From NCBI GenBank assembly GCA_015056655.1, contig SVFV01000010.1, positions 1-64,000 on the forward strand: DNA of 64,000 nt, read 5' to 3'. The notes under the pieces are model-generated. The model was not told the origin of the DNA. It did not search any database and was given only the letters and a program-made list of their open reading frames with translations. This stretch comes from Butyrivibrio sp. Its GTDB lineage: Bacteria > Bacillota > Clostridia > Lachnospirales > Lachnospiraceae. The stretch's first letter is position 1; every line of letters starts with the position of its first letter. Made by a program: the position numbers and the translations under genes. Positions 7,414 through 62,774 of this stretch are shown one piece after another.

Positions 7414-8859
7414 TTATCTCTTAGCCCATGTTCTGGGTGACATAAGAATCAGTATAGGTAAAAGCTCAAGTCTTCCTGCGAGCATATCAAACATAAGGAC
7501 AAACTTTGAAAGAACTGAGAATGATCCAAAGTTTCCGGTAGGACCAACCATGCTAAGACCAGGCCCTATGTTGTTTAGTGTTGCGGCTACAGCAGTAAAG
7601 TTTGTTTCAAAGTCGAATTCATCAAATGCAATAATAAGTGTTGAGATGATGAAAATAACAACGTACATACTAAGATAAGCTGAAACTGATTTAACAACAG
7701 TAGAATCTATAGGATCTCCATCCATGTAAACCTTTTTTACTGAGTTAGGATGAACAATATATATCAGCTCATTCTTTGTAGCCCTTAAAAGGATAAGGAA
7801 TCTTGAAAGTTTAAATCCACCACCGGTTGAACCAGCGCAGGCACCTGTAAGCATAAGGCATGCAAGAAGTGTCTTTGCAAGCTGAGGCCACTCATTGAAG
7901 TCTAAGGTGGAGAAACCTGTGGTTGTCATTACTGATGCTACTGTAAACAGTGAGTGATGGAAGGACTCAAAGGGAGTAGCTGTAGTTCCCTGATTATAAA
8001 TCAGAACTGCAATAAGAGTAGCAGATCCAAACATAAGAGCAAGGTAAAGCTTTACTTCATCACTTCTAAGAGCCTGAAGAGGTCTCTTGGTAATCAGGTA
8101 ATAGTAAACACTGAAGTTGATACCACAAATGATCATAAATACAGTTATTACAATCTGTGAAGATGTTCCAAATGCACCGATACCTGCGTTGTTAAGACCA
8201 AATCCTCCGGTACCAACAGTAGCAAAGGTTGTCGTAAGTGATTCATATAAATTAAGTCCAGTAAAAAGCAAACATATAATCTGCAGAACAGTGATGCCAA
8301 TGTAAATTAGATACAAAATCTTAGCTGTCTCTCTTACCTTCGGTACGAATTTTCCAACCGAAGGGCCCGGGCTTTCTGCTCTCATAAGGTGCATGCTGTA
8401 GCCACCTGCCATGGGCATGATTGCAAGAATGAATACGAGAACGCCCATTCCTCCAATCCAGTGTGTAAAGCAGCGCCAGAACTGTACACTGTAGAACATT
8501 GATACATCTGAAAGGATAGTTGATCCTGTTGTTGTAAGACCTGAAATAGTCTCAAACAAAGCGTCTACATAGCTATCGGTTACTCCTGTAAAAACAAAAG
8601 GTAGAGCGCCGACCATACTCATTAAGATCCAGGTAAGAGCTGTGGCTACAAAGCCTTCTCTTGCGTAAATGGCATGATTTGCTGGCTTAAAGTGCGCTCC
8701 AATTGATCCAAGAATCAAACATCCAGCAACAATTGCTGAAAATACTGTTGCGCAATGCCATTCCCCATAAATAAATGCCACAATTAAGGGTAATATCATT
8801 AGTAAGCCTGTTATCTGTAATACTCGTGATAACAGAAAACGAATCATCTGGTAGTTCAT
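7414..8859 (-). CDS. trkH: Trk/Ktr potassium uptake membrane subunit TrkH
   Basis: TTTGSTILSD, HWIGGMGVLVF, GTGGF, MTTTGFSTLDF, GACAGSTGGG selectivity-filter-like repeats. Confidence 0.95.
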   Translation of the reverse strand: MNYQMIRFLLSRVLQITGLLMILPLIVAFIYGEWHCATVFSAIVAGCLILGSIGAHFKPANHAIYAREGFVATALTWILMSMVGALPFVFTGVTDSYVDALFETISGLTTTGSTILSDVSMFYSVQFWRCFTHWIGGMGVLVFILAIMPMAGGYSMHLMRAESPGPSVGKFVPKVRETAKILYLIYIGITVLQIICLLFTGLNLYESLTTTFATVGTGGFGLNNAGIGAFGTSSQIVITVFMIICGINFSVYYYLITKRPLQALRSDEVKLYLALMFGSATLIAVLIYNQGTTATPFESFHHSLFTVASVMTTTGFSTLDFNEWPQLAKTLLACLMLTGACAGSTGGGFKLSRFLILLRATKNELIYIVHPNSVKKVYMDGDPIDSTVVKSVSAYLSMYVVIFIISTLIIAFDEFDFETNFTAVAATLNNIGPGLSMVGPTGNFGSFSVLSKFVLMFDMLAGRLELLPILILMSPRTWAKR

Positions 8860-8887
8860 TTTTTCCTCTCCAACATTAGGGTTTTTC

Positions 8888-10249
8888 TCATGCCAATATA
8901 TCTGAAATGTCGAACAGACCGATGTGGCTTGTTATGACAATAACAGTGTCTCCGGCGTAAATCTGGCTTTGACCTGTGGGAGAGATAATCTCACCTTTCC
9001 TGTTAATAAGTGAAACAAGAACTCCTTTTTTCAGGTTGAGCTCAGAAAGAGGCTTTCCTATTACAGGAGAACCTTCTGTAATGAAGAACTCCAGTGCTTC
9101 TACTTTGCCTTCATTCATCTTGTAGAGTGCTTCTATGCTGTTGTTACCCATAGAATTGTTCATACCGCGGACAAACTGTACGATACGCTGTGCGGTGATA
9201 TTCTTGGGATAAATAATACTTCCTATCTGAAGAGAACCGATTATCTCACCATAGTTTACTCTGTGAACCTTGGTAATAAGCTTAGCTTTGGGGTTCTTGC
9301 TCTTTACATACATTGAAAGCATGATGTTCTCTTCATCGAGATTGGTAAGGGCAACGAAAGCTTCTGTGCTTACAAGTCCCTCCTCCATAAGAGAATCCTT
9401 ATCTGTTCCGTCAGCGTTTATTATAAGCGCCTGAGGGAGAAGATCAGACAAGCGCTTGCATCTGTCTAAATCCTTCTCAAAGAGCTTTACATCTATACCA
9501 AAGGAAATGAGCTGTTCAGCAAGATAGTAGCCTGTAGAACCGCCACCAATGATCATTGCTGAGTGTACTCTTGTGGTGGGAAGACCAACCTTTCTGAAGA
9601 ATTCAGCGATATTTCTTGAGGCGCCAACGATAGAAAGCTCATCATTTGCTCTAAGAACAAAATCACCATTAGGGATAGAAATTTCATCAGCACGAGAAAC
9701 AACTGCGATCAGAACTTTACTCTTAATCTCAGACTGGATATCTCTAAGTGACTTGTTACATATTTTGGAATCCTCAGTAACTGTCATGTGAACTATCTCA
9801 GCTCTTCCCTGAGCAAAGGTCTCAATCTTTGTAGCAGCAGGAAATTTAAGAAGTCTGGCAGCTTCGTTTGCAGCAAGCTCCTCTGGATTAACAACAAGGG
9901 AAAGACCAAGCTCTTCCTTGATGAAGCTGATTTCCTTTTTATAAATAGGGTTCTTTACTCTTGCAATAGTGTTGCAGTGACCAGCCTTGCGTGCGATAAG
10001 GCAGCAAAGAAGGTTAAGCTCATCATTTCCTGTAACTGCTATCATAAGGTCTGCATATTCAATGCCGGCATCCTTCATTACAAGGTAGCTGGCACCATTT
10101 CCTACAATACCCATTACATCAAAGTTATTAACAACGCTCTGAATTACGTCCTTACGCTGTTCAATTACGGTTACGTCATGGCCTTCACCACTTAACTGTT
10201 CTGTAAGTGTGGCGCCCACATTACCGCAACCAACGATAATAATCTGCAT
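8888..10249 (-). CDS. trkA: Trk system potassium transporter TrkA (two RCK_N/RCK_C)
   Basis: MQIIIVGCGNVGATLTEQL and MIIGGGSTGYYLAEQL Rossmann motifs. The start at 10249 is preferred over the longer ORF-track start (RBS gaggc upstream). Confidence 0.93.
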   Translation of the reverse strand: MQIIIVGCGNVGATLTEQLSGEGHDVTVIEQRKDVIQSVVNNFDVMGIVGNGASYLVMKDAGIEYADLMIAVTGNDELNLLCCLIARKAGHCNTIARVKNPIYKKEISFIKEELGLSLVVNPEELAANEAARLLKFPAATKIETFAQGRAEIVHMTVTEDSKICNKSLRDIQSEIKSKVLIAVVSRADEISIPNGDFVLRANDELSIVGASRNIAEFFRKVGLPTTRVHSAMIIGGGSTGYYLAEQLISFGIDVKLFEKDLDRCKRLSDLLPQALIINADGTDKDSLMEEGLVSTEAFVALTNLDEENIMLSMYVKSKNPKAKLITKVHRVNYGEIIGSLQIGSIIYPKNITAQRIVQFVRGMNNSMGNNSIEALYKMNEGKVEALEFFITEGSPVIGKPLSELNLKKGVLVSLINRKGEIISPTGQSQIYAGDTVIVITSHIGLFDISDILA

Positions 10250-10366
10250 AAAAATGCCTCCTAAGTTTATGTACGTTAAGATTATAACACTTATAGAAAT
10301 AACAACAAGTTTATGCTGCACTTTACTAAAAATGTATTTGTCAGGAGGCTTTTGACAAAATAAAAA

Positions 10367-10391
10367 CCCGATAGACTCATGGTCTATCGGG
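10367..10391. terminator. Intrinsic terminator hairpin
   Basis: CCCGATAGAC-tcatg-GTCTATCGGG flanked by AAAA/TTTT (on the - strand). Confidence 0.75.
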
Positions 10392-10397
10392 CTATGA

Positions 10398-10550
10398 TCA
10401 GGCATCCTTATAATCGTCGGCAGATTCGCCTGTGACCTCGCAGTATTTTGCGAGTAGACTCTGGTCATCAAGCGCCTTTAAATCGGCTTCATTTCCATTT
10501 CCAAAGTCAACAATTATCTTAATGGCTTTTTGTCTGAATTCATCGCTCAT
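10398..10550 (-). CDS. Small conserved-looking protein (50 aa)
   Basis: MSDEFRQKAIKIIVDFGNGNEADLKALDDQSLLAKYCEVTGESADDYKDA; RBS aggaggtga upstream; terminator directly after. Confidence 0.6.
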   Translation of the reverse strand: MSDEFRQKAIKIIVDFGNGNEADLKALDDQSLLAKYCEVTGESADDYKDA

Positions 10551-10691
10551 ACGCAGTCACCTCTCCTTTTGAAATAGTACTGTAAAAAATCTATTTTTAT
10601 TTTACTGTAAAAGGGAGGTTTTGCTTATAAACATTCTATAAAATTTATGAGCTTCTAAAACTTTATTTTACGGTGAAAATTTATTAGGAAA

Positions 10692-11129
10692 TTACTTGAA
10701 TTTCTCATAGGTGAGCTTACCATTCTTGCAAACCCACACTTTGGTGCCTTTAGCCTTTACAACATAGGTTACGTTTACCTTCTTGATACCCTGTTTTTTG
10801 ATATCCTTACGAAGCTTTGCGGATGTCTTTTTGATGGAATCACGTGTCTCATTGTAATACTTTGGTGCCATCATCTTTGACATTTGTAACATGGATGCAC
10901 TTGTATTCATATTGAGTGTGAAGGTGAAATTGTAGGCTCCTTTTTCTTTTTTATATGAAACCTTAACCTTACCAACGCATGAGCCTGCCTTTGCAGCCTT
11001 TGAATACTTTGTGCAGATCTGCTTTGCCTTCTGATCCAGACTTGCAGCGCTCGCAGTTGAGCCCACTGCTGTGAACAGAATTGTGAAAACAAACATCATT
11101 GTAAGTAACTTAGTAACTACTTTTTTCAT
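10692..11129 (-). CDS. Hypothetical secreted protein
   Basis: MKKVVTKLLTMMFVFTILFTAVGSTASAA signal peptide; RBS ggaggaaaagg before the ATG. Confidence 0.75.
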   Translation of the reverse strand: MKKVVTKLLTMMFVFTILFTAVGSTASAASLDQKAKQICTKYSKAAKAGSCVGKVKVSYKKEKGAYNFTFTLNMNTSASMLQMSKMMAPKYYNETRDSIKKTSAKLRKDIKKQGIKKVNVTYVVKAKGTKVWVCKNGKLTYEKFK

Positions 11130-11287
11130 ATCCTTTTCCTCCAAATGATTTATTAGTTCCCTTTTGTAAAAGTTACCTGTCTATAATAGCAGAAAATGGC
11201 ATTTTTATGTTGGATTATCGTTAAGATTTTTCTATAATTATATATAGGTAGTGACGTTTGTTTGCTAGTTTTTCAGGGGGATAAAAT

Positions 11288-11779
11288 ATGGATGAACAGA
11301 TGAAGATTATTGGCCGCAAGATGAGTATCAGAATGGGCATTATGATGAGCTTTGCGCTGGCTCTTGTAGGGACGCTTACTTCCGGGCATTTCACTATTCC
11401 GGGATTTCTTTTAAGCTTTGTAGTAAGCGCTATAATCAGCCTTATTATTGGATTTCTTGTACCTGTTGGTAAGATATCTGCCGATTTTTGCAGAAAAAGA
11501 AAGTATGCTCCGGGGACACTGGCAAATGGAATTGCAAGCAGCCTTATCTCCGATATTATTTATACTCCTATCATAACTTTGATAATGGTTGCACTTGCTT
11601 ATTTCATGGTCATGAAACAGTCTGGTGGTATGGCACAGCTGATGTTTCTTCCGATGTTCTTAAAATCACTGGTCATCTGTTTTGTTGTAGGTTTCATTTT
11701 GATATTTATTTTCATGCCAATATTCTTGAAGGGTATTATGAAGAATATGCCACCTATGGATGAACCTCCGGCTGAATGA
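11288..11779 (+). CDS. DUF2798-like small integral membrane protein
   Basis: Four hydrophobic TM segments; RBS cagggggata. Confidence 0.6.
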   Translation: MDEQMKIIGRKMSIRMGIMMSFALALVGTLTSGHFTIPGFLLSFVVSAIISLIIGFLVPVGKISADFCRKRKYAPGTLANGIASSLISDIIYTPIITLIMVALAYFMVMKQSGGMAQLMFLPMFLKSLVICFVVGFILIFIFMPIFLKGIMKNMPPMDEPPAE

Positions 11780-12132
11780 TTATTTCAATAGCGCAAAAGA
11801 TTAAGTAAAATACAAGTAGAAAGCCATGTCATGAGAAAAGTTCTTGTCTAATCTCATGATGCAGTCCTCCCTTGTGCTCCGGATGGGGGTCCGAAAACAC
11901 TTTTTTAAGTAATCGATTAAGTGCGGTCTATTTCTGCATATCATAACTCATAATTGTGACGTTTTTCTCATTAATAAATAAAAAAATAATAAAATTCGCA
12001 TAATATACGCATAATAATTCTCAAATGCTTTTTTTAGAATACTTTATCTTGGATTCATTGTTTTTTCAGTGCTCAAAAATTATACTTGCCTTAGTGAGGG
12101 GGCTATATATTCTAAAGGAGATTTAATAAAGC

Positions 12133-55685: not shown

Positions 55686-56378
55686 ATGATTTACTCAACA
55701 GAGGTAAAAAATATGTGTCCCGTAACACAAGGGGTACATCATGGTGCTGCTCCCATTCCTGAAGAGGCAAAATGGGTACAGTCCAAAGAAATCAAGGACA
55801 TTTCCGGATACACACATGGTATTGGCTGGTGTGCTCCTCAGCAGGGTGGATGTAAGCTTTCACTCAATGTTAAGGATGGTGTTATCCAGGAAGCATTGGT
55901 AGAGACAATTGGATGTTCAGGTATGACACATTCAGCAGCTATGGCAGCTGAAATTCTTCCCGGTCTTACAGTTCTTGAAGCTCTTAACACAGACCTTGTT
56001 TGTGATGCTATCAACACAGCTATGAGAGAGCTTTTCCTTCAGATCGTTTATGGTAGAACACAGAGTGCATTCTCAGAGGATGGTCTTCAGATCGGTGCTG
56101 GTCTTGAGGATCTTGGTAAGGGATCACGTTCAATGGTAGGTACAACCTACGGTACACTTGACAAGGGACCTCGTTACCTCGAGCTTACTGATGGTTACAT
56201 CACAGATCTCGCTCTTGACGAGAATGATGAGATAATCGGTTACAAGTATGTTAACTTCGGAAAGATGATGGACTTCATCAAGGCTGGTGATGATGCAAAC
56301 ACAGCTATTGAGAAGGCTAAGGGTCAGTACGGTCGTGTTGCTGATGCTGCAAGATTCATCGATCCCAGAAAACAGTGA
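55686..56378 (+). CDS. NifU-like iron-sulfur cluster scaffold-type protein (partner of GGGtGRT protein)
   Basis: GIGWCAPQQGGCKLSLNVKDGVIQEALVETIGCSGMTHSAAMAAEIL; immediately upstream of the GGGtGRT gene. Confidence 0.82.
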   Translation: MIYSTEVKNMCPVTQGVHHGAAPIPEEAKWVQSKEIKDISGYTHGIGWCAPQQGGCKLSLNVKDGVIQEALVETIGCSGMTHSAAMAAEILPGLTVLEALNTDLVCDAINTAMRELFLQIVYGRTQSAFSEDGLQIGAGLEDLGKGSRSMVGTTYGTLDKGPRYLELTDGYITDLALDENDEIIGYKYVNFGKMMDFIKAGDDANTAIEKAKGQYGRVADAARFIDPRKQ

Positions 56379-56400
56379 TAAGGTAAGGAGGATATTAAAA

Positions 56401-57420
56401 ATGGCTTTATTTGAATCATATGAAAGAAGAGAGCCCCAGATTCTGGCTTGCCTTAAGGAGTATGGGATTTCTTCTATCGAAGAATGTAAAGAAATCACAA
56501 TGGCAGCAGGCATTGATGTATACAGCCTCATCGAGGGTATCCAGCCTATCTGCTTTGAAAATGCTAAGTGGGCTTACACAGTAGGTGCTGCTATCGCAAT
56601 CAAGAAGAACTGCCGCAAGGCTGCTGATGCTGCTGCAGCAATCGGTATCGGCCTTCAGGCTTTCTGCATCCCTGGTTCTGTTGCAGACCGTCGTAAGGTT
56701 GGTCTTGGACATGGTAACCTTGGTAAGATGCTTCTTGAAGAGGATACAGAGTGCTTCGCATTCCTCGCTGGTCACGAGTCATTCGCTGCTGCTGAGGGTG
56801 CTATCGGTATCGCTGAGAAGGCTAACAAGGTTCGTCAGAAGCCCCTTCGCGTTATCCTTAATGGTCTTGGAAAAGACGCTGCACAGATCATTTCCCGTAT
56901 CAACGGCTTCACATATGTAGAGACAAAGTACAACTACTTCACAGGTGAGGTTGAGGAAGTATTCAGAAAGTGCTATTCAAAGGATGCAAATTCACCTCGT
57001 GCAAAGGTTAACTGCTACGGCGCTAACGATGTACAGGAAGGTGTTGCTATCATGTGGAAGGAGAACGTTGACGTATCTATCACAGGTAACTCAACCAATC
57101 CTACAAGATTCCAGCATCCCGTTGCAGGTACATATAAGAAAGAGCGTAACGAAGCTGGTAAGAAGTACTTCTCAGTTGCTTCAGGTGGTGGTACAGGTCG
57201 TACACTTCACCCTGACAACATGGCAGCTGGTCCTGCTTCCTACGGTATGACAGATACTATGGGTCGTATGCACTCAGACGCTCAGTTCGCTGGTTCTTCA
57301 TCAGTTCCTGCTCACGTTGAGATGATGGGTCTTATCGGCGCTGGTAACAACCCGATGGTTGGTATGACTGTTTCTACAGCTGTATCCATCGAGGAAGCTG
57401 CAAAGGCTGGTAAGTTCTAA
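56401..57420 (+). CDS. GGGtGRT protein
   Basis: SVASGGGTGRTLHPDNMAAGPASYGMTD signature; RBS aaggagg before ATG 56401. Confidence 0.92.
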   Translation: MALFESYERREPQILACLKEYGISSIEECKEITMAAGIDVYSLIEGIQPICFENAKWAYTVGAAIAIKKNCRKAADAAAAIGIGLQAFCIPGSVADRRKVGLGHGNLGKMLLEEDTECFAFLAGHESFAAAEGAIGIAEKANKVRQKPLRVILNGLGKDAAQIISRINGFTYVETKYNYFTGEVEEVFRKCYSKDANSPRAKVNCYGANDVQEGVAIMWKENVDVSITGNSTNPTRFQHPVAGTYKKERNEAGKKYFSVASGGGTGRTLHPDNMAAGPASYGMTDTMGRMHSDAQFAGSSSVPAHVEMMGLIGAGNNPMVGMTVSTAVSIEEAAKAGKF

Positions 57421-57476: not shown

Positions 57477-57768
57477 TTTTATATGTATTGCGAAAGATTA
57501 TTATCGCCTTAAACAAATCTTAAGGATTAATTCATTGCTATTTCAAAATGCTTATGATAATTTAATTGAGCGTTATTCATAAGCCATGTGAAGGTATCTG
57601 AGCTATTCGCTCAAATTATCCAACTTTTTTTGGAACCAGATATAATACCGAGTTTTTTAGTACTATTATTTAAAATATTAATTCTTTGTAGTCGTCTGTC
57701 TTACCTTTTCAAGCTATGTAATGGCGCTTGAAACCCGAAAATCTAATACATATAATGGAGGTAAGAAA

Positions 57769-58743
57769 ATGAAGTTTTGGACCAGAATAATAGGAAGGGT
57801 TAATAGGAACTATAAGGACAGGCTGTTTATAAGGATTTTCTCAGATAAAGATGCACTATTGAGGCTGTATAATGCAGTAAATGGAACAAATTATTCTAAT
57901 GCTCAAGATATACAGATAAATACTATAGATGACTATTTGTATATGGGTATGAAAAATGATATTTCTTTTCTCTTTACAGATGTCCTCAATCTTTATGAGC
58001 ATCAATCAACATTTAATCCTAATATGCCACTTAGAGGATTTCTGTATTTGGCGAGCCTGTATCAAAAAATATTTGATGAAAAGGATCTATTTAGTTCAAA
58101 GCTGATTGAACTTCCATCCCCTCAGTTATTTGTTTTCTACAATGGAACGAAGGAAGAACCTGACAGGATGGAAATGAAGCTAAGTGATGCATTTATTGGG
58201 AAAAAAGATTTTGAACCATGTCTTGAATGCAAAGCAATTATGCTAAACATAAATAGTGGGCATAATGAACAGATAATGGGAGCCTGCAAAGAATTGAGGG
58301 AGTATGCAACATTTATTTCTTTAGTTCGAAAAAACCTAAAAAATGGTTTGAAATTGAGAGATGCTATTGATAAAGCAGTAGATGAATGCATAGAAGAAGG
58401 CATTTTACGAGACTTGTTTTTGAATAATCGAAAAGAGGTGGTTAGTATGCTACTTATGGAATATGATCAGGAAGCGCATATTCGCAGTGAAAAGAATATT
58501 TCTTTTGAAGAAGGTGTAGCGAAGGGAATCCAGCAGGAAAAGTATAAAAATTTATGTAAACTCATCAAACAGATTCTAAAAAACTATCAGGCTGGTAAGT
58601 CTGCCGAAGAAATTGCGGATATACTTGATGAATCAGAAGAAACTATTCGAAAAATAGTAAAGATATCAGAGAAATTTGCACCAGAATATGATGTCAAAAA
58701 GATAGCTGATGCACTTTTGGAAAGATATGAAAAAGATGACTGA
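57769..58743 (+). CDS. Rpn family / PD-(D/E)XK transposase-nuclease-like protein
   Basis: NRNYKDRLFIRIF, NDISFLF...LYEHQSTFNPNMPLRGFLYLASLY, LPSPQLFVFYNG; RBS ggaggt before ATG 57769. Confidence 0.82.
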   Translation: MKFWTRIIGRVNRNYKDRLFIRIFSDKDALLRLYNAVNGTNYSNAQDIQINTIDDYLYMGMKNDISFLFTDVLNLYEHQSTFNPNMPLRGFLYLASLYQKIFDEKDLFSSKLIELPSPQLFVFYNGTKEEPDRMEMKLSDAFIGKKDFEPCLECKAIMLNINSGHNEQIMGACKELREYATFISLVRKNLKNGLKLRDAIDKAVDECIEEGILRDLFLNNRKEVVSMLLMEYDQEAHIRSEKNISFEEGVAKGIQQEKYKNLCKLIKQILKNYQAGKSAEEIADILDESEETIRKIVKISEKFAPEYDVKKIADALLERYEKDD

Positions 58744-58841
58744 AATATTGTAACAAAAAATTTTTTTACCAGTAAAATGGAAAATTAATATTATTGAAAT
58801 ACAGTCCTCAGGCGTAGCTTTAAGGCTTTGCCTGGGGATTT
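58612..58841 (+). repeat. Direct repeat, copy A (3' end of Rpn-like gene plus downstream terminator region)
   Basis: About 95% identical over the coding part to 62357..62587. Confidence 0.9.
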
Positions 58842-58980
58842 ATGATTTTCTTAAAGATTGAAATGATTCTTACAATGGACATTAAGTTGATATTAAACTG
58901 TATAGATAATATAATCGATACGTTAACGTTATTAACTATTAGTTGATGAGTGATACTGAACATTTCGGTTAGGGGAATAT

Positions 58981-59322
58981 ATGCAGATTAGTGAGAGAAT
59001 TTTTAAAATATTGAATGAAAAAAATATGAATCTGGCGGAGTTCTCAAGAAAAACAGGAATATCTCACAGTACAGTTAGTGATTGGCGGAGAAAGAAAACA
59101 AATCCCTCTGCGGATAAAATCCTTACTATTTGTGATGTACTGGGGGTAAATCCGTATGAGCTTTTGCAAGACAATGATGGTGATAATAATAAAAGCCTTG
59201 ACTATATGATACTTAGTGAAGGGACGGATAAGTATAGATTGGTTATAGAATTTGATGGATTGTCTCCGGATAAAAAAGAAAGATTATTTGGATATTTAAA
59301 TGCACTTAAAGATTTAGATTGA
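58981..59322 (+). CDS. XRE-family HTH transcriptional regulator
   Basis: NLAEFSRKTGISHSTVSDWRRKKTNPSADKILTICDVLGVNPYELL. Confidence 0.92.
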   Translation: MQISERIFKILNEKNMNLAEFSRKTGISHSTVSDWRRKKTNPSADKILTICDVLGVNPYELLQDNDGDNNKSLDYMILSEGTDKYRLVIEFDGLSPDKKERLFGYLNALKDLD

Positions 59323-59330
59323 AGATTGAG

Positions 59331-59352
59331 CCACATGTTTGTTGACATGTGG
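59331..59352 (+). terminator. Terminator after the XRE gene
   Basis: CCACATGT-ttgttg-ACATGTGG-TTTTT. Confidence 0.75.
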
Positions 59353-59380
59353 TTTTTCTTTATATACTATATTGTATATA
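59342..59380 (+). promoter_or_regulatory. Putative promoter with palindromic operator for the AAA ATPase gene
   Basis: TTGACA (59342) about 15-17 nt before TATACT/TACTAT; TATATAC-tatatt-GTATATA inverted repeat overlaps the -10. Confidence 0.5.
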
Positions 59381-59422
59381 CGGAATCGATGACGTAAAAA
59401 CGATATGGGAGGAATGAATAGA

Positions 59423-61363
59423 ATGCAATTTTTTAAAGGCGAACTCAAACTGGGAGATTTGTATTATCGCGATAAAGAAGTGGTTTGCCAATCGGCTCGT
59501 AAGCTTAATTCAGAGTATTGGTCAAGAAAATTATTTTGGGGACTACATGTTGTTGTATCAAGAGTTACTTTGGGAATGGTGACATTTCTTGTTATGTCTG
59601 AGACTCAGGACGTAGATAATGAAGAAATAGACTCTATATGTCGGGAATATGCCACTGACCTTGCCAAACAATCTGATGTTTCCAAGGTTGACTGCTATAA
59701 AGATAAAATTCTTGTTTCTGAAATTACTTTATATACATTTTTTGATCTCCTTAAAGAAGAATGGTTGGAGAAAATGTATGAAGATAAGGATGAAATATAT
59801 GATCTTCTACACATTAGCGGCTCAAAATATGTGTGCAAAGAAGAGTTGATAGCTTCGACAATCAAAGAGAGGAAAAGCACTAGAAGTTATATACCAAAGG
59901 ATGAATTAGTAAGGATAAGAAATAGCAGGATACAGCAGGGTATTGTGGCATATTCACCTGTTCATTACATAGTAGTAGAAAGTAATGATACTATAGCCGA
60001 GCAAATTGAGGATGAAATAATATATGAATTACGAAAGGCCGGAAGAATAACAAGCAGACGACTTATTAAGCTTACTGATTCAGAAATGATAAATCTGGAA
60101 AGGCACAGATACAAAATACAAAACCTTAATAATCTTGATGGTGGAACTGTTATTGTTTCAATGAATCACTGTGATTTTGAGGACGCAGTTAAACTTACTA
60201 AAGCAGTCTATTCTGAAGAAAATCATTATCTTTCAAAATATGAGGTTATTTTTCATGTTTCAGAGAATGACCAGAAGCTTTTGAATGCTATAGAGGATAC
60301 ATGTAAGCTTTGGCCATTTATTCATATCAGAAATAAGCGTTTAAATAAGAAAACAGCTATAAAGCAACTTGAAGAGATTGCTACAGCAAATAATGTGATA
60401 GTTACTCAGGAAGATTGTCTTAAGGTTTTAAAGGATCAAAAGAATTATTCCTTTGATGAAGTTAATGAGATGTTCAGAAAATGGTTTCTTACAGATTATA
60501 CAATCAGTAAGTATCACCCACAGTATCGTAAAAAAATAGAAGAATATTACGGTGAAAAAGAAAAAGATACAGATGCTTTAAAAGAATTAGAAAATCTTGT
60601 TGGGCTGCGAGATGTAAAAGAGCTGTGTGTGAAAATCATAAAATTCTATGAACTGCAAGCGTTGAGAAGAAATGAGCTTTCTGATTCAGAGGGGATAGGA
60701 ATGCATATGATTTTTACTGGTAATCCGGGAACAGCTAAGACAACCGTGGCAAGGCTTATGGCAAAGATATTTAAGCAGAAAGGGATTCTCTCAAAAGGTG
60801 AGTTGATTGAGGTTGGACGACAGGATCTGGTTGGCAAATATGTAGGGTGGACAGCAAAAATAGTTAAAGAATACTTCGATAGGGCAAAGGGTAGTGTGTT
60901 GTTTATCGATGAAGCCTATTCTTTATTGGATGGTGATAAAAACAGTTTTGGAACGGAAGCGATTAATACTATTGTTCAGGAGATGGAAAACAGAAGAGAC
61001 GATGTTGTTGTAATATTTGCCGGATATAAAAAAGAGATGAATGAATTTGTTTCAGCTAATAGTGGCTTGAAGAGCAGGATATCTTTCTTCGTTGATTTTC
61101 CTGACTATTCTGGGGCAGAACTATATGAAATCCTTAATATCTTTGCCAAAAAGAATCATTTTGAATTGAATTCGGATGTTCATGATGCGTTTATGAAGAC
61201 AATTGAAATGCAGGATACTGTGAATGGAAATGGAAGACTAGTAAGAAATGAGTTTGAAAAGGCAAGACTACGACAGGCGAATCGCTTGTTACAAACGTCA
61301 AAGAAACCCAAAAGAGAGGATTTATTTAAACTTGTTGGAGCTGATTTTGGAGGTGCGTCATGA
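59423..61363 (+). CDS. AAA+ ATPase of CbxX/CfxQ (SpoVK-like) type with a long N-terminal region
   Basis: MHMIFTGNPGTAKTTVARLMAKIF (Walker A), GSVLFIDEAYSLL (Walker B), VVIFAGYKKEMNEF, GLKSRISFFVDFPDY; RBS ggagg. Confidence 0.9.
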   Translation: MQFFKGELKLGDLYYRDKEVVCQSARKLNSEYWSRKLFWGLHVVVSRVTLGMVTFLVMSETQDVDNEEIDSICREYATDLAKQSDVSKVDCYKDKILVSEITLYTFFDLLKEEWLEKMYEDKDEIYDLLHISGSKYVCKEELIASTIKERKSTRSYIPKDELVRIRNSRIQQGIVAYSPVHYIVVESNDTIAEQIEDEIIYELRKAGRITSRRLIKLTDSEMINLERHRYKIQNLNNLDGGTVIVSMNHCDFEDAVKLTKAVYSEENHYLSKYEVIFHVSENDQKLLNAIEDTCKLWPFIHIRNKRLNKKTAIKQLEEIATANNVIVTQEDCLKVLKDQKNYSFDEVNEMFRKWFLTDYTISKYHPQYRKKIEEYYGEKEKDTDALKELENLVGLRDVKELCVKIIKFYELQALRRNELSDSEGIGMHMIFTGNPGTAKTTVARLMAKIFKQKGILSKGELIEVGRQDLVGKYVGWTAKIVKEYFDRAKGSVLFIDEAYSLLDGDKNSFGTEAINTIVQEMENRRDDVVVIFAGYKKEMNEFVSANSGLKSRISFFVDFPDYSGAELYEILNIFAKKNHFELNSDVHDAFMKTIEMQDTVNGNGRLVRNEFEKARLRQANRLLQTSKKPKREDLFKLVGADFGGAS

Positions 61364-62349
61364 TATATGTCGATTTTAGAACGGAAGTGGTAGAAAAACT
61401 GAGCAAAAAATTTCAAAATAGCGGATGGGTTATAAAACTCTATAAAGAAGGCTATACGGCAAACAATAAGCAGGAACTCGATTTTATACAGCAGACAAAC
61501 ATAAAATACTTCGGACATAGTAAGGATATTCTTGAGGGAGATTTTATTAAAATGTCAAAAGCCTGTGTCGGGGGTGGGACTTCAGTGTGTAGATTTGAGG
61601 TGAAGTATCTCTTTGATGAATATAATAGAGAAGGTTGGGAGAGGGTTTTTAAAATTGCAGATATGAACCTTAGAAGCACAGATAATGCAAAAGATTCGAT
61701 TGGAAATATCGCTAAATATGATGAAATTAACAATATACTTATCGCAAGACCATTGAACTATGAAAAGAATAAAGAGGCTTTAAAAGGACACATATTTCGT
61801 AGGGTAGGAGACTTTGCAATAGTGCTCTATATTCGTATATCTGATAATAAAGAAAACTTGATTTCGTGCAAGGTGCCAAGGACTGATTTTGAAGCTTGGA
61901 ATATAAGCGAAGATCAGGCAATAGATCGAGCTCTGGAAAACTCAAGTATGATGTATCCTGCGGAGATTTATAAAACAAGTGGACAAATAATTGAAGATGC
62001 ACTTTTCAACATTGTAACGCCATTTGACATTGACAAAGATTCGGTTGGCGAGATGACTACACTTACATGTACATGTTTTGGACAAAGGAATGGTGCGGTG
62101 GTGATATTCTATCCGGGAATAATGGAAAAATTTTACAAAGCATTTGGAAATGAAGAGTACTATGTAGTATTTACTGCTACAACAGAGTTCCACCTTCACC
62201 GCTGCAGTGAGTTTGCCCCTGAACAGTTACTTGAAACACTTTTGGATTGCAATGAGCGATTTCCGGAAGACACATTAAGTAATATGATTTTCAGATATAG
62301 TAGTGATAAGAAAGAACTGTTGCCTGTTAGCTTATGTGAGGAAAAATAG
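61360..62349 (+). CDS. DUF5688-like protein
   Basis: LTCTCFGQRNGAVVIFYPGIMEKFYKAFGNEEYYVVFTATTEFHLHR and ETLLDCNERFPEDTLSNMIFRY resemble Lachnospiraceae DUF5688; ATGA overlap with the AAA gene. Confidence 0.6.
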   Translation: MIYVDFRTEVVEKLSKKFQNSGWVIKLYKEGYTANNKQELDFIQQTNIKYFGHSKDILEGDFIKMSKACVGGGTSVCRFEVKYLFDEYNREGWERVFKIADMNLRSTDNAKDSIGNIAKYDEINNILIARPLNYEKNKEALKGHIFRRVGDFAIVLYIRISDNKENLISCKVPRTDFEAWNISEDQAIDRALENSSMMYPAEIYKTSGQIIEDALFNIVTPFDIDKDSVGEMTTLTCTCFGQRNGAVVIFYPGIMEKFYKAFGNEEYYVVFTATTEFHLHRCSEFAPEQLLETLLDCNERFPEDTLSNMIFRYSSDKKELLPVSLCEEK

Positions 62350-62356
62350 ACAATGG

Positions 62357-62587
62357 ATTGCGGATGCACTTGATGAATCAAAAGAAACTATTCGAAAAAT
62401 TGTAAAGATATCAGAGAAATTTGCACCAGAATATGATGTCAAAAAGATAGCTGATTCACTTTTGGGAAAATATGAAAAAGATGACTGAAATATTGTAACA
62501 AAAAAATTTTTTTACACAGTATAATGGAAAAATAATATCATTGAAAAACAGTCCTCAGGCGTAGGTTTAAGACTATGACTGGGGATT
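62357..62587 (+). repeat. Direct repeat, copy B: truncated Rpn-like 3' end
   Basis: Encodes IADALDESKETIRKIVKISEKFAPEYDVKKIADSLLGKYEKDD, matching the C-terminus of 57769..58743. Confidence 0.9.
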
Positions 62588-62774
62588 TGCTTTTATATGC
62601 GTAGTGAGAACGAATATTAAGTTTGGGTTGAAATTATAAAATTTTTATAAACTGTGAAATAAAAGACGATAAAATGACAATTCCCTATTGTAAACAGGGA
62701 TTTGTCGCGTTAGAATCAAAATTGTCACGTAAACTTATTTCTAGTGTTTCTTAAATGAGACGGAGGTATATTTA

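Follow-up and report, generated by a model that had tools for sequence, protein, structure and literature searches.

An AAA+ ATPase and DUF5688 gene cassette set between copies of an rpn 3′ end in Butyrivibrio

Genes and signals of the cassette

The stretch of DNA considered here, which we call the window, is a 64,000-nucleotide part of contig C48 (SVFV01000010.1) in a 4.0 Mb genome of Butyrivibrio sp. (labelled G000), and it holds a small cassette in which a gene for an XRE-type regulator is followed by genes for a AAA+ ATPase and a DUF5688 protein. All three lie on the plus strand downstream of an Rpn-like gene, as read from the open reading frame (ORF) list of the window. This Rpn-type gene (57721–58743, 340 amino acids), recognised as RpnL-like through the family matches of its relatives and through conserved residues, is the left border of the cassette, and a second copy of its 3′ end is the right border. 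The XRE/Cro-type regulator of 113 amino acids (58981–59322; PF13443, 1.8e-14; PF01381, 3.2e-12) precedes the tandem AAA+ ATPase ORF (59405–61363), which was delimited from the ORF, its Pfam matches and the alignment of relatives, and the stop codon of the latter overlaps the start codon of the 329-amino-acid DUF5688 protein (61360–62349) as ATGA. Both the XRE and the AAA/AAA_lid_6 domains score above the Pfam cut-offs. The initial annotation had read this gene order, the ATGA overlap and the directly repeated 3′ end of Rpn from the sequence, and the ORFs and the repeat comparison bear out all three.

Ahead of the XRE gene there is a promoter-like TTGATA-17-TATAAT (58887–58915, 11/12), and the XRE gene is separated from the AAA gene by a terminator-like hairpin (59328–59355) that overlaps a promoter-like TTGACA-17-TACTAT (59342–59370), the two together covering 59328–59370. 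These signals are consensus matches only, from which the XRE gene and the AAA–DUF5688 pair look like separate transcription units.

The likelier start of the AAA protein is at 59423, giving a product of 646 amino acids, because MQFFK, with which it begins, is a start conserved across the five close relatives, and a GGAGG Shine–Dalgarno sequence lies ~9 nt upstream (59409–59413). The region N-terminal of the CbbX-type domain is then ~384 amino acids long. It had been described as ~350 amino acids of uncharacterised sequence, which holds for a 140-amino-acid domain of no known kind, while the remainder is a degenerate AAA domain. As judged from sequence and predicted structure, the protein is composed of a small alpha/beta domain (residues 1–140; 59423–59842), for which no relative was found beyond its own family, a degenerate AAA domain, D1 (residues 141–375; 59843–60547), and an intact CbbX/SpoVK-type domain with its lid, D2 (60572–61360). 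D1 aligns with the protein’s own D2 in hhalign (probability 93.6, E 2e-7), its Walker A being replaced by PVHY, which is conserved among the relatives, and its Walker B by GGTVIVSMNH. In D2, Walker A (GNPGTAKT), Walker B (LFIDEA), the pore-loop (YVGWTA) and sensor 2 (GNGR) are all intact, and the best structural match is CbbX (Foldseek 1.6e-21), with a profile alignment to CbbX of E 1.5e-86. In agreement with a second AAA domain, Foldseek also matched the tandem AAA proteins Rix7, Drg1, Pex1/6, p97 and Clp across 500–600 columns, with global TM-scores by query that are low (0.25–0.37) and from a model with a predicted TM-score of only 0.49.

Membership of the characterised CbxX-type ATPases was considered and rejected in each case. 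The protein scores 240.4 bits against the curated equivalog cut-off of 459.25 for the CbbX Rubisco activase, 262 against 422.95 for SpoVK, and 185.4 against 466.65 for EccA of type VII secretion. It shares with CbbX/CfxQ, the red-type Rubisco activase, a D2 whose Walker, pore-loop and sensor motifs are intact, but has the added N-terminal domain and degenerate D1, and there is no Rubisco gene in the cassette. With SpoVK and EccA it shares the AAA subfamily, whereas the sporulation or type VII secretion context is absent at the cassette. The IetAS defence system, which pairs a AAA protein with a subtilase, is matched weakly and in the AAA core only (9.5e-8); it requires a subtilisin-like partner, whereas the partner here is DUF5688, and there was no padloc match to it. 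In domain plan it resembles unnamed Lachnospiraceae tandem AAA proteins of ~690 amino acids (30–32% identity), which have the same D1–D2 arrangement and the PVHY motif but, in the loci fetched, other neighbours and no DUF5688 partner. Among the neighbours of these tandem AAA relatives are GmrSD-type restriction proteins (L049), and in two loci the AAA gene lies downstream of RecB-family helicase/nuclease genes (L051, L052).

The DUF5688 protein, labelled ‘DUF5688-like’ in the initial annotation, was placed in the right family but with some understatement, as it is a true member of PF18941 (E 2.8e-28, 99.7 bits against a Pfam gathering cut-off of 34.5). Its predicted model is confident (pLDDT 91) and matches nothing in the PDB (best E 0.41); a fold assignment was not made, since the best match in a viral library reaches only E 0.034. 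A type II toxin–antitoxin system, in which the XRE protein would be the antitoxin, calls for a recognisable toxin encoded beside it; the DUF5688 neighbour, with no PDB structure resembling its model, would be a candidate toxin at most. Searching 34 members of the family for other Pfam families gave single and weak matches only, and DUF5688 is mentioned in no paper in the literature searched.

Distribution, empty sites and exchange

Among the 194 related genomes searched, four encode the full-length AAA protein, with five copies in all: the window genome, G021 (two copies), G006 and G060. The last three are Butyrivibrio metagenome genomes, and the four are of 79 genomes of the genus; full-length relatives occur only in Butyrivibrio. 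The N-terminal part gave weak, partial matches only, in 6 of 396 other genomes of the family, and in GTDB it occurs in two genomes only, both Butyrivibrio. It was not found in viral contigs, phages or plasmids, and phage records contain only distant matches to DUF5688 (30% identity or less, in five unannotated records), on which grounds a phage or plasmid origin was rejected.

The XRE gene adjoins the AAA gene at all five loci, upstream in four, while in G060 it is weakly related and divergent. DUF5688 follows the AAA gene at four of the five, with the 4-nt overlap in the window, on G021:C30 and on G006:C8, and past an IS110 element in G060, with identities to the window copy of 46%, 46% and 36% for the last three. 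The ATGA overlap is thus kept at 46% DUF5688 identity (L043, L044), and the AAA–DUF5688 pairing is real and coupled; the initial annotation had named a lack of co-occurrence elsewhere as grounds for refuting it, and instead the pairing recurs. The IS110 elements in G060 are two, flanking the AAA gene (L045 4736–5854 and 11353–12471), and one of them splits it from DUF5688.

The site in the window has a conserved gene order in the genus, consisting of a 230-aa gene, a 377-aa gene (56287–57420), a GH25 gene and a second CbxX-type AAA gene. In five relatives (L077, L078, L079, L081, L082) the GH25 gene comes next after the 377-aa gene, 0.13–1.0 kb away and without the cassette, and G006 provides an empty site within one genome, where a second junction between coiled-coil and Rpn genes is cassette-free (L044 4140–4420, compared with 8520–12100). 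The locus is therefore not fixed among relatives, a point on which the initial annotation had made its proposal of mobility depend. The exact insertion borders in the window are not placeable, as every relative diverges at the stop codon of the upstream gene. More broadly, the spacer between the 377-aa and GH25 genes (from 57420 in the window to 65938 on C48; L077–L085) is an insertion hotspot of 0.13–9.6 kb, and its contents differ between relatives, including a GGDEF-related protein, a 681-aa gene and a 1506-aa gene.

Between G021:C30 and G006:C8 the synonymous divergence (dS) is 0 for the XRE gene, 0.015 for the AAA gene and 0.010 for DUF5688, against a median of 0.256 and a range of 0.060–1.095 for 24 genes in three other regions of the same two genomes, and 0.30 for the adjacent Rpn gene. 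Nucleotide identity in 50-nt steps is 82–92% to the left of the cassette, rises to 98–100% just past the terminator of the coiled-coil gene, averages 99% over the cassette and drops inside the Rpn gene, so that the exchanged block has a sharp left edge just past that terminator and a right edge within rpn. Because the cassette dS is near zero against this genomic median of ~0.26 and the 0.30 of the adjacent Rpn gene, the homologous cassette has recently been exchanged as a unit between these two other Butyrivibrio species, with the reservation that both are metagenome-assembled genomes and that the near-identity is open to assembly error. Exchange as a unit, as initially suggested, thus finds its support in this near-zero dS and in the absence of the cassette from the same site in relatives.

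No transposase or integrase gene and no convincing pair of inverted repeats at the ends were found in the cassette, and no target duplication was seen, as judged by eye only. An insertion sequence or transposon was rejected on this basis, and because the borders lie at terminators or in rpn.

The rpn gene and the direct repeat

The direct repeat comprises a left copy at 58612–58841 and a right copy at 62357–62588, each made up of the final 43 codons of Rpn together with a terminator-like hairpin, with 95% identity across 156 nt followed by 86% across 87 nt; given this length and identity it cannot be chance. The right copy begins 7 nt past the DUF5688 stop codon, differs from rpn by five non-synonymous and one synonymous codon changes and has no Rpn internal start site, because of which it looks like an rpn remnant and not a working gene. 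A function as RpnS was judged unlikely, as the copy contains no internal start and only half of the RpnS region, and purifying selection is not seen.

The window Rpn protein itself (P0001) falls below the Pfam and NCBIfam Rpn models. Its membership of the family comes from relatives, 9 of 18 close ones matching TIGR01784 (best 1.5e-5), and from conserved residues in their alignment, in which N79-D80, F83 and E93 are invariant and H94-Q95 near-invariant. Zhong et al. (PMC10327210) showed that rpn genes are intragenic toxin–antitoxin genes acting against phage, and argued that they are not transposases. The internal translation start that such genes use for a C-terminal antitoxin is also predicted in the window, by a Shine–Dalgarno sequence at 58434–58441 and an ATG at 58447 (together 58434–58449) that would yield an RpnS of 98 amino acids. 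Across 23 Butyrivibrio Rpn genes the anti-Shine–Dalgarno energy at the homologous methionine averages −13.2 kcal/mol, compared with −2.9 for 264 other internal methionines (p = 1e-15), and in the window it is −16.1 kcal/mol. This signal leads us to conclude that the window Rpn fits the RpnL/RpnS type, with predicted toxin–antitoxin activity. The strong internal Shine–Dalgarno sequence and start codon are conserved in 35 related Rpn genes besides that of the window, predicting RpnS as in E. coli and C. difficile.

The initial annotation had treated Rpn as mobile-element-associated, and here that claim does not hold in the sense of a mobilising enzyme: the gene carries the internal start signature of RpnS and belongs to a family described as anti-phage and not as transposases (PMC10327210). 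The idea that Rpn transposes or mobilises the cassette was rejected on the strength of the same paper together with the missing element ends. The likeness to the described RpnL/RpnS systems extends to the PD-(D/E)XK-type family, the internal start and the downstream partial RpnS copies reported for some rpn genes (PMC10327210); the difference is that in the window an unrelated three-gene cassette stands between rpn and the partial copy.

Rpn borders the cassette in G021 and G006 as well as in the window, and G060 has two Rpn genes 5–9 kb away. With ~7–12 Rpn-like genes per genome, immediate adjacency in two independent loci by chance is unlikely, on the order of 1e-3 to 1e-4 by a rough estimate. 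These observations bear on whether the direct repeat might be a relic of a tandem rpn duplication unrelated to the cassette, which would then have entered by illegitimate recombination. Tandem duplication does give rise to rpn arrays, extra RpnS copies occur downstream of rpn (PMC10327210), and the 5:1 ratio of non-synonymous to synonymous changes fits a decaying copy. Such a history leaves unexplained why Rpn also borders the G021/G006 cassette, why the block exchanged there has its right edge within rpn and why G060 has two Rpn genes within 9 kb, and we consider it very unlikely.

Profile comparison found no link between the window Rpn subfamily and the PF12784 Rpn of G021 and G006, so the two may be only distantly related. 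These PF12784 genes (L043 11640–12755; L044 12101–13153 and 4273–5298) have C-terminal heptad repeats (DKDATIA-like) whose number varies by copy and by species, which is reminiscent of the repeat variation in RpnS. In an array that apparently rearranges between species, Rpn genes alternate with large coiled-coil genes whose 3′ ends are shared (L043 3016–8058 and 13143–16736; L044 691–4167 and 5782–8520).

Partners of DUF5688 and possible roles

Outside the cassette, DUF5688 is found in several contexts. In six of the eight loci of a ClpX-like AAA+ ATPase, its gene forms a pair with DUF5688, within integrative elements, in both gene orders and often with a third small gene (~110 amino acids). 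The likeness to the window lies in a AAA+ gene beside DUF5688, the ORFs overlapping in two loci, and the differences in another AAA+ family, usually the extra gene, the varying order and an integrase/excisionase context. The strongest reason to think that DUF5688 works together with AAA+ machines is that it pairs with two distinct types of them.

These ClpX-like pairs (L061 6930–8769, on contig C63 of the window’s own genome; L172; L175–L179) lie near genes for a Tn916-type excisionase, a serine resolvase, an integrase N-domain and a D5-type primase, and DUF5688 adjoins RepA_N/DUF6017 replication genes in two further loci, one of them also with ParB and a type IV secretion system coupling protein. 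Such neighbours raise the question of whether the AAA+–DUF5688 pair is a mobile-element passenger that serves integrative or conjugative elements in replication, transfer, stability or anti-restriction, the window copy being a leftover, or domesticated, and no longer serving its host. Against this, the several kb around the window cassette contain neither an integrase nor a relaxase nor a replication gene, and the cassette has kept a regulator of its own and, at 46–65% divergence, catalytic motifs that are intact; it is therefore maintained by selection on its own. On balance we find the passenger role somewhat unlikely.

A second context is chromosomal: DUF5688 directly adjoins the elongation factor P gene (efp) in 14 of the fetched loci, which represent several genera of Lachnospiraceae (L004, L109, L112, L113, L115, L116, L120–L124, L126–L128), which makes a functional link to translation possible for the efp-adjacent form. 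Together with the fact that CbbX, the best structural neighbour of D2, remodels a cellular enzyme, this would suit an accessory proteostasis or translation-stress module, in which the AAA+ protein remodels a cellular target and DUF5688 is an adaptor derived from the efp-adjacent form. Unlike housekeeping chaperones, the cassette is patchy, recently exchanged and missing from most of the genus, and its DUF5688 is only ~14–24% identical to the others among the eight copies in the window genome. Such a module seems distinctly unlikely.

We tentatively favour, as possible but short of probable, an accessory module in which a AAA+ remodeller has DUF5688 as its dedicated partner, and which is swapped by recombination at rpn-bearing variable sites and probably conflict-related. 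The XRE protein would act as repressor of the two-gene AAA–DUF5688 operon, and the AAA+ protein would assemble into a ring in which recognition or positioning of a client falls to the non-catalytic D1 and the N-terminal domain, and its threading or remodelling to the active CbbX-type D2. Translational coupling would yield DUF5688 in fixed proportion, as the dedicated partner, either client-effector or adaptor. In the absence of a mobility enzyme of its own, the module would be swapped in hypervariable sites by homologous recombination, for which rpn genes, through their 3′ ends, terminators and repeats, may supply shared sequence and mark the borders; rpn sequence or nuclease may promote the exchange. 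Patchiness, recent exchange and neighbours hint at conflict, which could be a defence that acts on phage or other mobile elements, or else competition. What survives of the overall interpretation initially proposed is thus the exchange as a unit and the pairing, and what falls is Rpn as the mobilising enzyme, while the stress, phage-defence or toxin-like function suggested with it stays conjectural.

Several observations weigh against the conflict-related remodeller. The pair is not obligatory, since the second full-length AAA protein of G021 (on C37, 65% identical) has the XRE gene and no DUF5688, and a DUF5688 of the cassette subclade stands alone in G074. PADLOC recognised none of the three cassette proteins as a system, which counts in particular for AAA and DUF5688, and the chromosomal position of DUF5688 beside efp points to a cellular rather than a conflict role. 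The measured exchange concerns two metagenome-assembled genomes and not the window copy, and the rpn link may reflect no more than a joint gathering in variable regions, for which the cassette and rpn could share a preference.

A bolder form of the favoured reading would make DUF5688 a new class of effector or adaptor that teams repeatedly with different AAA+ machines, CbbX-type tandem AAA and ClpX-like, in mobile and variable DNA as an undescribed conflict system, with rpn genes as recombination anchors; we regard this as rather unlikely. Whichever role applies, a small cassette that has crossed species while showing almost no synonymous divergence makes a promising candidate for a function that is under selection and open to testing, and DUF5688, absent from the literature searched, without a match in the PDB and repeatedly paired with AAA+ proteins in accessory DNA, is worth attention. 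The rpn borders tie the cassette to a recently described anti-phage toxin–antitoxin family, and raise the question of whether rpn genes may seed the exchange of neighbouring cargo.

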